From the NCBI GenBank assembly GCA_947625845.1, contig CANQQB010000001.1:1-64000 (forward strand): 64,000 nucleotides of DNA, in the 5' to 3' direction. The notes beneath the pieces were generated by a model that was not told the origin of the DNA, did no database searches, and saw only the letters and a list, made by a program, of their open reading frames with translations. Positions 3,713-8,508 of the stretch are shown one piece after another (positions within the stretch are counted from its first letter, which is position 1; every line of letters starts with the position of its first letter). Source of the stretch: an uncultured Oscillospiraceae bacterium (GTDB lineage Bacteria > Bacillota > Clostridia > Oscillospirales > Oscillospiraceae). The position numbers and the translations under genes are program-made.

Positions 3713-4624
3713 ATGCCCATCCCGAAACCCATCCGATGGTTGGCCCTGGCGCTGCTGCCGGCCCTGGCCCTGTGCCTGCCGGCCCTGGCCGACGCCGATG
3801 ATATCCGGCCCAGCGACCCGGTGGTCTACGTTCCGGACGCGCCCGGCGAGCGCGTCCTGGGAGCCGACCCCCTGCTGGTGGACGTCTCCCACGCCGACCA
3901 GGGCTACGTGATGGCCCGCTATACCGGCGCCGCCGCCAAGGCCGTTGTCATGCTCACCGGCCCGGACGCGGTGGCCTACAAATACTTCCTGCCCCCCTCG
4001 GAGAGTTTCGTGCCCCTGCCCCTGACCGCCGGCAGCGGCGCGTACGCGGTGGACGGGTACGAAAACGTGGAGGGCACCACCTACGCCACGCTTTTTAAAG
4101 ATAGCCTGGACGTGGCCCTGGCCAGCGACCTGCTGCCCTACCTCTACCCCAACCAGTATGTACTCTTCGGCCCGGACACCAAGGCCGTGGCCCTGGCGGC
4201 CCAGACCGTCGCCGGCGCGGACAGCGACCTGGCCGCCGTGGAGCGCATCTACCGCTATGTGATCGACAACATCACCTACGATGACGAAAAGGCCGCCACC
4301 GTCACCGGCGGTTATCTTCCCACGGTGGACGACACGCTGGCCACACGCACGGGCATCTGCTTTGACTACGCGGCCCTGACCACCGCCATGCTCCGCAGCC
4401 AGAACATCCCCACCAGGCTGGAGATCGGCTACGCCGGCAGCATCTACCACAGTTGGATCAGCGTCTATGTGGACGACGTGGGCTGGATCGACCGGCTCAT
4501 CGAATTTTCCGGCGACGGCTGGACCCGGATGGACCCCACCTTCGCCTCCAACGGCGACAGCAGCGAGGCCATTTTGCAATACATCGGCGACGGGTCCAAC
4601 TACGCCCTGCAATATCTGCACTGA
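3713..4624 (+). CDS. Secreted transglutaminase-like domain protein
   Basis: Signal peptide LALALLPALALCLPALA; TRTGICFDYAALTTAMLRSQNIPTRLEIGYAG...YHSWISVYV...RMDPTFAS gives a Cys/His/Asp transglutaminase core. Confidence 0.8.
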   Translation: MPIPKPIRWLALALLPALALCLPALADADDIRPSDPVVYVPDAPGERVLGADPLLVDVSHADQGYVMARYTGAAAKAVVMLTGPDAVAYKYFLPPSESFVPLPLTAGSGAYAVDGYENVEGTTYATLFKDSLDVALASDLLPYLYPNQYVLFGPDTKAVALAAQTVAGADSDLAAVERIYRYVIDNITYDDEKAATVTGGYLPTVDDTLATRTGICFDYAALTTAMLRSQNIPTRLEIGYAGSIYHSWISVYVDDVGWIDRLIEFSGDGWTRMDPTFASNGDSSEAILQYIGDGSNYALQYLH

Positions 4625-4643
4625 GAGAAAGGAGACCTATCCT

Positions 4644-5681
4644 ATGAAGCCACTGTCCAACGCGGAGCTGGCCTCCTTCTGCGCCCAGCTCGCCATGATC
4701 CTCCGCTCCGGCATATCCGCGCTGGAGGGCCTTTCCATCATGCGGGAGGACCTGCCCGACGGGGACGGCAGGAAGCTCTTAGACGCCATGCTCGAATGTA
4801 TGGAGACCGGCGGCAGCTTTTCCGAGGCCGTGGAAGCGGCCGATTGCTTCCCGGAGTACATGTGCAGCATGGTCCAACTGGGGGACCGGTCCGGCCGGCT
4901 GGACGACGTGATGGAGTCCCTGGCGGCCTACTACCGCCGGGAGGACGAGCTGGCCCGGAGCATCAAGAGCGCCGTGACCTACCCGCTTGTCATGCTGGGC
5001 ATGATGGTGGCGGTGATGCTGGTGCTCATCGTCAAGGTCCTGCCCGTATTTGACCAGGTCTTCCGCCAGCTTGGCGCGGGGCTCACCGGCGTATCCGGCG
5101 CGGTGCTGCGCATGGGCCAGTCCCTGAGCCGGTACAGCGTGGTATTCATCGCCGTGGCCTTGCTTCTGGCGGCCGTATGCGGCTATTTTCTCGGCACGCG
5201 CAAGGGCCGGGCACGGCTGCGCCGCTTTTCCGTCCGCTTTGCCGGCACCCGGAAGCTGGCGGAGAAGATCGCCTGCGCCCGCTTTGCCAGCGGCATGCAC
5301 CTGGCCCTGGCCAGCGGCCTGAACATCGACGAGAGCCTGGACACCGTCTCCCGCCTGGTGGAGCACCCGGTGGTAGGCGGGAAGGTCAACACCGTCCGCC
5401 ACATGGTGGCCGAGGGTGGCAGCCTCGCCGACGCCATCGTCGAGACCGGCCTTTTCACCGGCGTGTACGCCCGCATGATCCACATCGGCGTGAAGACCGG
5501 CGCCACGGACGAGGTGCTGCGCCAAATCGCCGAGCAGTACGACGCCGAGATCAGCGAGGGCATGGCCGGCGCCATCGCCAAGCTGGAGCCCACCCTGGTG
5601 GCCATCCTGTCCGTGGCGGTGGGCATGATCCTCTTGAGCGTGATGCTGCCCCTGATGGGCGTCATGAGCAACATCGGCTGA
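4644..5681 (+). CDS. pilC: Type II secretion/type IV pilus inner-membrane platform protein (PilC/GspF family)
   Basis: ATG at 4644 after AAAGGAG; duplicated GspF domains with LASGLNIDESLDTVSRLVEHPVVGGKVNTVRHMVAEGGSLADAI and C-terminal MLPLMGVMSNIG. Confidence 0.88.
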   Translation: MKPLSNAELASFCAQLAMILRSGISALEGLSIMREDLPDGDGRKLLDAMLECMETGGSFSEAVEAADCFPEYMCSMVQLGDRSGRLDDVMESLAAYYRREDELARSIKSAVTYPLVMLGMMVAVMLVLIVKVLPVFDQVFRQLGAGLTGVSGAVLRMGQSLSRYSVVFIAVALLLAAVCGYFLGTRKGRARLRRFSVRFAGTRKLAEKIACARFASGMHLALASGLNIDESLDTVSRLVEHPVVGGKVNTVRHMVAEGGSLADAIVETGLFTGVYARMIHIGVKTGATDEVLRQIAEQYDAEISEGMAGAIAKLEPTLVAILSVAVGMILLSVMLPLMGVMSNIG

Positions 5682-5694
5682 CGGAGGCGGAAGC

Positions 5695-6557: not shown

Positions 6558-7001
6558 TTGGACAGGCACAATAACACCCGTTCCAGTCTTTTTCTCATCG
6601 AGCTGATCATCGCCATCTTATTTTTCTCTCTTGGCAGCGCCGTGTGCGTGCAGGCCTTCGCCAAAGCCCACACCCTCACCGCCCAGGCCCGCGACCTGAG
6701 CTTTGCGTCCTCCACCGTGTCCGCCGCCGCCAACGTGATAAAATCCACGGACGGCTCCCTGGCCCAGGTGCAGGAGTACTTCCCCCAGGCTGTAACGGAC
6801 GGGGAAAATACCATCGCCGTGTACTATGACGCCGGCTTCGCCCCCTGCTCGGACGCCGACGCGGCCTATACCATGCGCATCACCACCGACGCGCCTGGCC
6901 TTATCCGCACCGCCGGCATCCGCATGTTCGACCGGGACGGCGAAAAACTGTATGAGCTTTTTTTGAGCTGCCCGGACCCGAAGGAGGTGTCCCATGGATA
7001 G
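6558..7001 (+). CDS. Pseudopilin-like protein
   Basis: TTG start 6558 after GGAAAGGAGG; N-terminus RSSLFLIELIIAILFFSLGSAVC resembles a type IV pilin helix (FTLIEL) without the usual Gly before the cleavage point. Confidence 0.6.
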   Translation: MDRHNNTRSSLFLIELIIAILFFSLGSAVCVQAFAKAHTLTAQARDLSFASSTVSAAANVIKSTDGSLAQVQEYFPQAVTDGENTIAVYYDAGFAPCSDADAAYTMRITTDAPGLIRTAGIRMFDRDGEKLYELFLSCPDPKEVSHG

Positions 7002-7440
7002 CCGCCGCCCCCGCCGGAGCGTGGTCAGCACCGGCGTAGTTTCCATCGTGCTCATTTTCGTGATGCTGTCCCTGCTGACCTTCGCGGTATTGTCCCTGGT
7101 CAGCGCCCAGGCCGATCTGCGCCTGAGCGAGAAAAGCGCCCAGCGCACCACGGACTATTACGCCGCGGAGAACGCCGCCAACGCCATCCTGGCAGGCCTT
7201 CTCACCGCTGACGATCTGGACGCCTTTGCCGCCGCGTCGGACGTGACGCTGACGGAGGACGGCCGCGCCAGCTATCAGGTCCCTCTTGGCGAGGACCAGA
7301 TTTTGGCCGTAGAAGTCGCCCTCCCCGCCGACGGCGGTCCCTGGCGCATCGAGCGCTGGCAGGCCGTGTCCGATTACGATTGGGACGCCGATAAACCCTT
7401 GGATCTGCTGAGCACAGGCGGTCTGCCCGTGCTGGATTGA
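6994..7440 (+). CDS. Single-TM protein of the pilus-like operon
   Basis: 148 aa; hydrophobic N-terminus VVSIVLIFVMLSLLTFAVLSLVSAQADLRLSEKSAQRTTDYYAAENAAN, similar in layout to PilX/minor pilin N-termini. Confidence 0.55.
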   Translation: MDSRRPRRSVVSTGVVSIVLIFVMLSLLTFAVLSLVSAQADLRLSEKSAQRTTDYYAAENAANAILAGLLTADDLDAFAAASDVTLTEDGRASYQVPLGEDQILAVEVALPADGGPWRIERWQAVSDYDWDADKPLDLLSTGGLPVLD

Positions 7441-7455
7441 CTGGAGGAATGAACC

Positions 7456-8508
7456 ATGACCGTATTGGATTTTCTCACCGAGACGACGAAAAAAGGCGCC
7501 AGCGACCTGTTCATCGTGGCCGGCCGTCCGCTGTCCTACAAGCTTGGAGGCAAGCTTTTGGAGATAAGCGGCGAGCGGGTCATGCCCGACGAGACGGACG
7601 CGCTGGTGCGCGGGATATACGAGCTGGCCGGCCGGGACATCAGCCGTCTGCGCCAGACCGGGGACGACGACTTCTCCTTCGCCATCCAGGGCCTTTCCCG
7701 CTACCGGGTGAGCACCTACACCCAGCGCGGCTCTCTGGCGGCGGTGATCCGTGTCATCACCTTCGCCCTGCCCGACCCGGAGGCCCTGGGCATTCCCGGA
7801 CAGGTAGTAAACCTGAGCGAGCTGAAAAAAGGCCTGGTGCTGGTCACCGGCCCCGCCGGCAGCGGCAAGTCCACCACCCTGGCCTGCATCATCGACAAGA
7901 TCAACCGCACGAAGGAAAAGCACATCATCACCCTGGAGGACCCGCTGGAATACCTGCACCGGCACCAGAAGAGCATCATCAGCCAGCGGGAGATAAGTTC
8001 CGACACCGCCAGCTACACCGTGGCTCTCCGAGCCGCCCTGCGGCAGAGCCCGGACGTGATATTGCTGGGGGAGATGCGGGACTATGAGACCATCTCCATC
8101 GCCATGACCGCCGCCGAGACGGGGCACCTGGTCCTGTCCACCCTGCACACCTTAGGCGCCGCCAACACCATCGACCGCATCATCGACGTGTTCCCCTCCG
8201 GCCAGCAGCGGCAGATCGCCGTGCAGCTTGCCAGCGTCCTGCAGGCCGTGGTGAGCCAGCAGCTCATACCCGCCGCCGACGGTGGCGTGACCGCCGCCTT
8301 CGAGCTGATGACCGCCACCACCGCCGTGCGCAACATGATCCGGGAGAACAAGATACACCAGATCGACGGGCTCATCTATTCGTCCTCCACGGACGGCATG
8401 TTCTCCATGGACGCCAGCCTTCTCAAGCTGTGCAAGGCCGGCAAGATCACCCGCGACGAGGCCCTGGCCCACAGCACCAACCCGGACATGCTGGCCCGTA
8501 AAATCTGA
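7456..8508 (+). CDS. pilT: Type IV pilus retraction ATPase family protein PilT
   Basis: Walker A [12 protein letters not shown], Asp/His boxes [30 protein letters not shown], and AVRNMIRE matching the PilT AIRNLIRE signature. Confidence 0.92.
   Translation: [350 protein letters not shown]

Follow-up and report, generated by a model that had tools for sequence, protein, structure and literature searches.

Type IV filaments are described in a 2023 review as having four universal parts, namely pilins, a prepilin peptidase, an extension ATPase and a platform protein (PMC10191384). How, then, could an operon operate that encodes a platform protein (PilC) and the retraction-type ATPase PilT together with four small proteins, and neither PilB nor a peptidase? 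The question is raised by positions 3713-8508 of a stretch of 64,000 nucleotides (the window) from contig CANQQB010000001.1 of an uncultured Oscillospiraceae bacterium. Seven open reading frames (ORFs) are closely packed here on the + strand in the order transglutaminase (TGase), PilC, s1, s2 (a DUF4860 protein), s3, s4 and PilT, and are closed by a strong terminator, whose 12-bp stem (8528-8555) is followed by TCTTTTTTTG. ORF coordinates, strand and stem bear out the packed layout given in the preliminary description of this DNA, and domains (Transglut_core, two copies of T2SSF, DUF4860 and T2SSE) were assigned by Pfam and NCBIfam. We think it probable that this module encodes a distinct, reduced type IV filament-like machine, a minor-pilin-type pseudopilus with PilT as its sole motor.

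The gene run in the window is not due to chance, because the identical order recurs in 67 other loci (counting long, non-duplicate loci that contain PilC and s1-s4 together), which answers the call of the preliminary description for a check of gene order. Within the window's own family, 27 of 121 genomes, the window included, carry the module in identical order; 26 of these family loci (within L020-L047) were extracted for comparison, and a contig end truncates one of the 26. A search of named genomes gave 23 more copies, complete or partly cut (L082-L103, L105), including those of [Clostridium] asparagiforme DSM 15981 and Pseudobutyrivibrio ruminis. A DUF4860 match turned up in 44 of 393 class genomes and in 13 of 399 genomes of a phylum sample, and the regions around 20 of the class matches contain PilC-s1-s2-s3-s4 again, with PilT following in 18. 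In genus g106, PilT does not adjoin the module and is encoded elsewhere in the genome. The module loci come from Clostridia and related Bacillota of many families, with more beyond the class. Genome G446 has three DUF4860 genes at separate sites (L062, L176 and G446:C88), two of them in module copies.

The operon had been described as having no pilin. This part of the description does not hold, as at least s2 and s3 are, judged by their sequences, descendants of pilins. DUF4860 (PF16152) was matched in the s2 of all 26 of 26 family members. The s2 homologue of locus L169, which reads QQGYSLIELILVM and carries the prepilin motif GYSLIE, passes the cut-offs of both N_methyl (23.4 bits, cut-off 21.2) and DUF4860 (60 bits) in the same protein, and therefore DUF4860 belongs to a pilin-derived protein. 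A profile of s3 gave 14 matches in the PDB, mostly pilin chains (PilA, geopilin, PilE and others; best E 0.015). In an early branch of the module (families f10 and f70, and also L192 from outside the class), s3 reads RRGFTLIELIIAV with the canonical GFTLIE motif, while the s3 of the window reads S-LFLIE, with Glu5 kept and Ser, not Gly, at position -1. Throughout the main branch Glu5 is present in 69 of 70 s3 sequences and Gly or Ala at -1 in 13 of 70 (Ser 20, Pro 14, Gly 12, Arg 7, Asn 5, Thr 4 and others); at this residue the early branch has Gly in 8 of 8. The last residue of a prepilin leader is said to be invariably Gly or Ala (PMC10191384), and such a class III signal peptide is found in s3 of the early branch and is not the pattern of the main branch.

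No Pfam domain scored above cut-off in s1, s3 or s4 of the window or its main-branch relatives. The AlphaFold2 models of s1 and s4 (predicted local distance difference test, pLDDT, 89 and 90, respectively) each consist of a single N-terminal helix of about 50-60 residues and a small head, which is two-stranded in s1 and a three-stranded sheet in s4; s4 is without Glu5. The top Foldseek match of s1 is a type IV pilin (E 0.74) with further pilins behind it, none significant. For s4, Foldseek comparison with the PDB gave nothing significant and a viral fold library yielded nothing useful, and there is no credible solved homologue of s2 or s4 in the PDB. The s4 of early-branch members carries RGS[SA] at the pilin -1 region, and in its position and this early-branch motif s4 might be PilX/GspK-like. 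Size, order and motif would be consistent with a G/H-like role of s1, a J-like role of s2, an I-like role of s3 and a K-like role of s4. At L045:5080-6780 (genome G053), s1 is fused to a C-terminal extension of about 460 residues without Pfam match, and is thus a modular pilin-like protein whose large added domain is presumably extracellular.

The ATPase of the module is of the PilT type. It passes the TIGR01420 (PilT/PilU subfamily) cut-off of 319 bits, whereas it reaches only 122 bits with the PilB model (cut-off 676), and it has the AIRNLIRE-type motif, Walker A and B and the His box, with residues that are largely invariant; the AVRNMIRE motif and the Walker B/His-box string quoted earlier for the window are both present. 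A single quick tree of 134 rows, with canonical PilTs as outgroup, places all module PilTs in one clade (Shimodaira-Hasegawa-like approximate likelihood-ratio test, SH-aLRT, 100), which takes in two rows from short loci, one being the window and the other a contig-end copy. The sister of this clade is formed by canonical PilTs of Lachnospiraceae and of the window's own family, and inside the module clade the early branch, whose prepilin motifs are intact, diverges first and is split from the main branch with support of 99. The module might thus have arisen from a type IVa pilus (T4aP), with later loss of the cleavage site and acquisition of the TGase in the main branch. The PilT of L136 (record titled Chryseobacterium sp. 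ISL-80) nests, with high support, among those of Bacillaceae; the record probably names the wrong organism.

The PilC of the module is a PilC/GspF platform protein of the type IV filament superfamily without the first ~58 residues of GspF, its alignment spanning GspF model positions 59-401. The TGase belongs to the transglutaminase-like superfamily by its Transglut_core domain with Cys, His and Asp, and its core is intact as originally stated, since all of 22 homologues share Cys216, His246 and Asp274. A lipobox-like motif marks 13 of these 22 as putative lipoproteins.

Are the missing parts encoded elsewhere? The window's own genome is a metagenome-assembled genome (MAG) of 78.5% completeness, in which one T2SSE and one T2SSF protein score above cut-off, both in the operon (the T2SSE protein being PilT), and no A24 prepilin peptidase was found. 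PilM was found neither in the operon, nor in this genome, nor in many relatives (weak matches in some, many within long ORFs); PilN and PilO were outside the search. A24 was searched in 74 module genomes (27 of the family sample and 47 of a wider set), and the controls behaved as expected. No A24 was found at E <= 0.001 in 26 of the 74, and a re-search of the same 26 at E <= 10 gave just two sub-threshold matches, inside long ORFs. There is no full-length PilB-like T2SSE match in any of these 26 genomes. Some have other, weaker T2SSE proteins (e.g. a Tad-like one in G183); the module PilT is the only T2SSE match in G018, G020, G027, G049, G050, G057, G062, G063, G072, G250 and G522. G250 is a single closed contig of 100% completeness with one T2SSE protein, the module PilT, and no A24. 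Because 26 module genomes, one of them closed, are without PilB and A24, it does not suffice to place the missing parts elsewhere in the genome. Two readings had been offered at the outset, and these genomes favour the reduced pseudopilus with a PilT-family ATPase over extension parts at another site. Complete canonical type IV pilus (T4P) loci at other sites, named in the preliminary description as the finding that would count against it, do occur in some relatives, though not in these 26 genomes.

In the own-family sample, A24 is present in 9 of 27 genomes with the module versus 36 of 94 without it, and therefore the module does not track the peptidase. The PF07963 prepilin motif was not found in 22 of 25 A24-less module genomes, the exceptions being G250, with three solo pilins, and two early-branch genomes in which the match is s3. 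MAG incompleteness was rejected as a general cause of the missing parts, as relatives of 91-100% completeness and the closed genome are alike in this respect. That the module is debris of a T4P locus was also rejected, since many families keep the order and key residues and the module PilTs are monophyletic.

Set against the four-part definition, the module has the platform protein and pilin descent, while its ATPase falls in the PilT clade and not with the extension type, the peptidase is absent from the operon, and the leader motif is lost in the main branch. We therefore class it as a variant of the type IV filament kind and not a member of T4aP, Com, Tad or the type II secretion system (T2SS). 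With the T4aP of monoderms (Streptococcus sanguinis, Clostridium) it shares a PilC platform, a TIGR01420 PilT, sister to T4aP PilTs of Lachnospiraceae, and pilin-like subunits. It differs from them in that the operon is without PilB, PilD, PilM/N/O and a major pilin (PilB and PilD not being found anywhere in the 26 genomes), and in the lost cleavage glycine and the added TGase. The four linked small pilin-like genes resemble those of the minor-pilin tip or initiation complex (PilHIJK, GspHIJK), and the putative cap s4 is without Glu5, as is the described cap subunit (PMC10191384); in the module, however, these four are the only subunits, are probably uncleaved and are linked to PilT instead of an extension motor. 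The Com pilus (ComGA-GG, ComC) is likewise a minimal monoderm machine with one ATPase and one short platform protein, but it has an extension-type ATPase and ComC without PilT, and the module the reverse. Tad or type IVc pili offer, in CpaF, a bifunctional ATPase that drives both directions without a partner; CpaF/TadA is from another ATPase clade, and Tad keeps the TadV peptidase and two platform proteins. Finally, PilT has a part in the initiation of mannose-sensitive haemagglutinin (MSHA) pili, where it possibly matures minor pilins (PMC9815625); unlike the module, these pili also need the extension motor MshE and cleaved pilins.

We infer how such a machine might work. The four small proteins would stay uncleaved in the membrane and assemble on PilC into a short pseudopilus resembling a minor-pilin tip or initiation complex. 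PilT, acting on PilC, would cycle this complex (assembling, remodelling or retracting it), and a single motor would thus do what PilB and PilT share elsewhere. The machine might help to position sortase-anchored surface proteins, or to put them under tension, in the thick wall of a monoderm cell, and the TGase, judged by gene context (sortases and LPxTG proteins beside the module in other genomes), might cross-link or trim them. Display or tension of sortase-anchored proteins would be the most likely role of the module, a suggestion that we hold less firmly than the machine itself. The fuller proposal, in which one PilT moves uncleaved minor-pilin-like subunits of gut Clostridia in either direction, independently of a peptidase, and the machine is coupled to sortase-anchored surface proteins, seems to us evenly balanced.

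The proposed role draws on the neighbours of the module, which were compared with 49 canonical T4P loci of similar size that span other phyla and are not taxon-matched. Sortases, of two groups and always in module orientation, are present in 12 of 67 module loci versus 0 of 49 canonical ones, and nine of the 12 overlap the module or sit within 50 bp of it. BTAD (SARP-like) regulators are present in 25 of 67 (two of these matches being weak or composite) versus 1 of 49, and LPxTG-type proteins in 8 of 67 versus 0 of 49. With controls drawn from other phyla, this enrichment is suggestive.

Several observations weigh against the reduced machine or its proposed role. The control loci span other phyla, as just said, and a minority of module loci have a linked sortase, the window having none beside the module. 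The pilin-like fold predicted for s1 and s4 draws on the shape of the AlphaFold models and not on significant Foldseek scores. Two early-branch genomes (G183 and G427) keep GFTLIE without a detectable A24 gene, and the closed genome G250, with neither A24 nor PilB, encodes three GFTLIE-type pilins that stand alone at a distance from the module (L182:3832-4614, L184:4495-5334 and G250:C1:279408); because of these three genomes, a peptidase that escapes recognition is conceivable. Outside the window's family, A24 is encoded in most module genomes, as are PilB or Tad ATPases, and parts could therefore be shared there. Most of the genomes compared are MAGs.

The likeliest of the alternatives is a PilT-driven export or wall-remodelling piston, which would not be a filament and would carry the TGase or some surface protein across the wall like a T2SS pseudopilus, its pilin-like proteins polymerising over a short distance at most. 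Such a piston would suit an operon without a major-pilin gene, the TGase as an immediate neighbour of the module at about 57 of the 67 loci (the exceptions being mostly contig ends or early branch), the adjoining LPxTG or Cna_B/SpaA proteins and the extended s1 of L045. It is nevertheless unlikely, as TGase and LPxTG proteins have N-terminal signals and should cross the membrane unaided, and the movement of a substrate is hypothetical. Quite unlikely, in our view, is an accessory minor-pilin/retraction cassette that borrows PilB, PilD and a major pilin from other sites in the genome. A24 is indeed present in 39 of the 47 module genomes of the wider set, and PilB or Tad in many; MSHA loci are also reported to be without a peptidase, for which sharing has been proposed (Denise et al. 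2019; PMC6668835). Against such borrowing stand the 26 genomes, closed G250 included, without A24 and PilB, the own-family A24 counts given above, and the Gly at -1, which is not kept even alongside A24 (1 of 9 family loci). A natural-competence-type (Com-like) DNA uptake machine with PilT in place of ComGA is highly improbable: no simpler type IV filaments are known than Com pili, whose gene set is of similar size and whose ComGB is short, as is the module PilC, but a ComC-type peptidase and a ComGA-type ATPase were not found in the A24-less genomes, and the recurring neighbours are sortases and regulators, not DNA-uptake genes.

If the reduced, PilT-driven pseudopilus is real, a module dispensing with two of four parts would test whether PilT assembles as well as disassembles, whether N-terminal cleavage is needed and what a lone minor-pilin complex can do. 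It would also give a lead to the function of DUF4860 and to a surface apparatus of common gut bacteria. In the open-access library searched, no description of the module was found, no paper mentions DUF4860, and none of relevance turned up for PilT with transglutaminase or for sortase with PilT and transglutaminase; an earlier description in the subscription literature is possible.

Table 1. Features of the operon in the window.
Feature	Length	Position	Strand	Evidence
TGase, secreted transglutaminase-fold protein	303 aa	3713..4624	+	Transglut_core 77.6 bits
PilC/GspF platform protein	345 aa	4644..5681	+	T2SSF x2, 160.7 bits
s1	114 aa	5695..6039	+	CYAxEGxYPxSLxYL signature; prepilin motif absent
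s2, DUF4860 protein	161 aa	6032..6517	+	DUF4860 91.1 bits
s3, pilin-like	147 aa	6558..7001	+	TTG start behind GGAGG-type site
s4	148 aa	6994..7440	+	long N-terminal helix and three-stranded sheet (AlphaFold2)
PilT-family ATPase	350 aa	7456..8508	+	TIGR01420 413 bits; AVRNMIRE motif
Intrinsic terminator closing the operon		8528..8555	+	12-bp stem, 10 G-C pairs, T-run

No neighbour is universal among the module loci, and a fixed eighth partner gene was thus not found. Sortase, BTAD, SpaA/Cna_B and GBS104-like tip-pilin domains were confirmed by Pfam in the neighbouring genes. An LPxTG-type protein is located between a contig-edge TGase fragment and PilC in L042, the order in L092 is SpaA/Cna_B protein, TGase, module and sortase, and a VWA/GBS104-like tip pilin adjoins the module in L023. 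A conserved protein of about 150 residues without Pfam match recurs near the module (L028:7065-7526, L034:9295-9711, L096:510-989) and is sometimes clustered with BTAD regulators.

Elsewhere in the window, two large secreted proteins (16820-18415 and 45195-47558) have LPxTG-like sorting ends (APATG, SPPTG) and TP-rich stalks. A resistance-nodulation-division (RND)-type transporter of 1370 aa is encoded on the - strand at 11692-15804 and has a very long extracytoplasmic insert, which is probably a coiled-coil.

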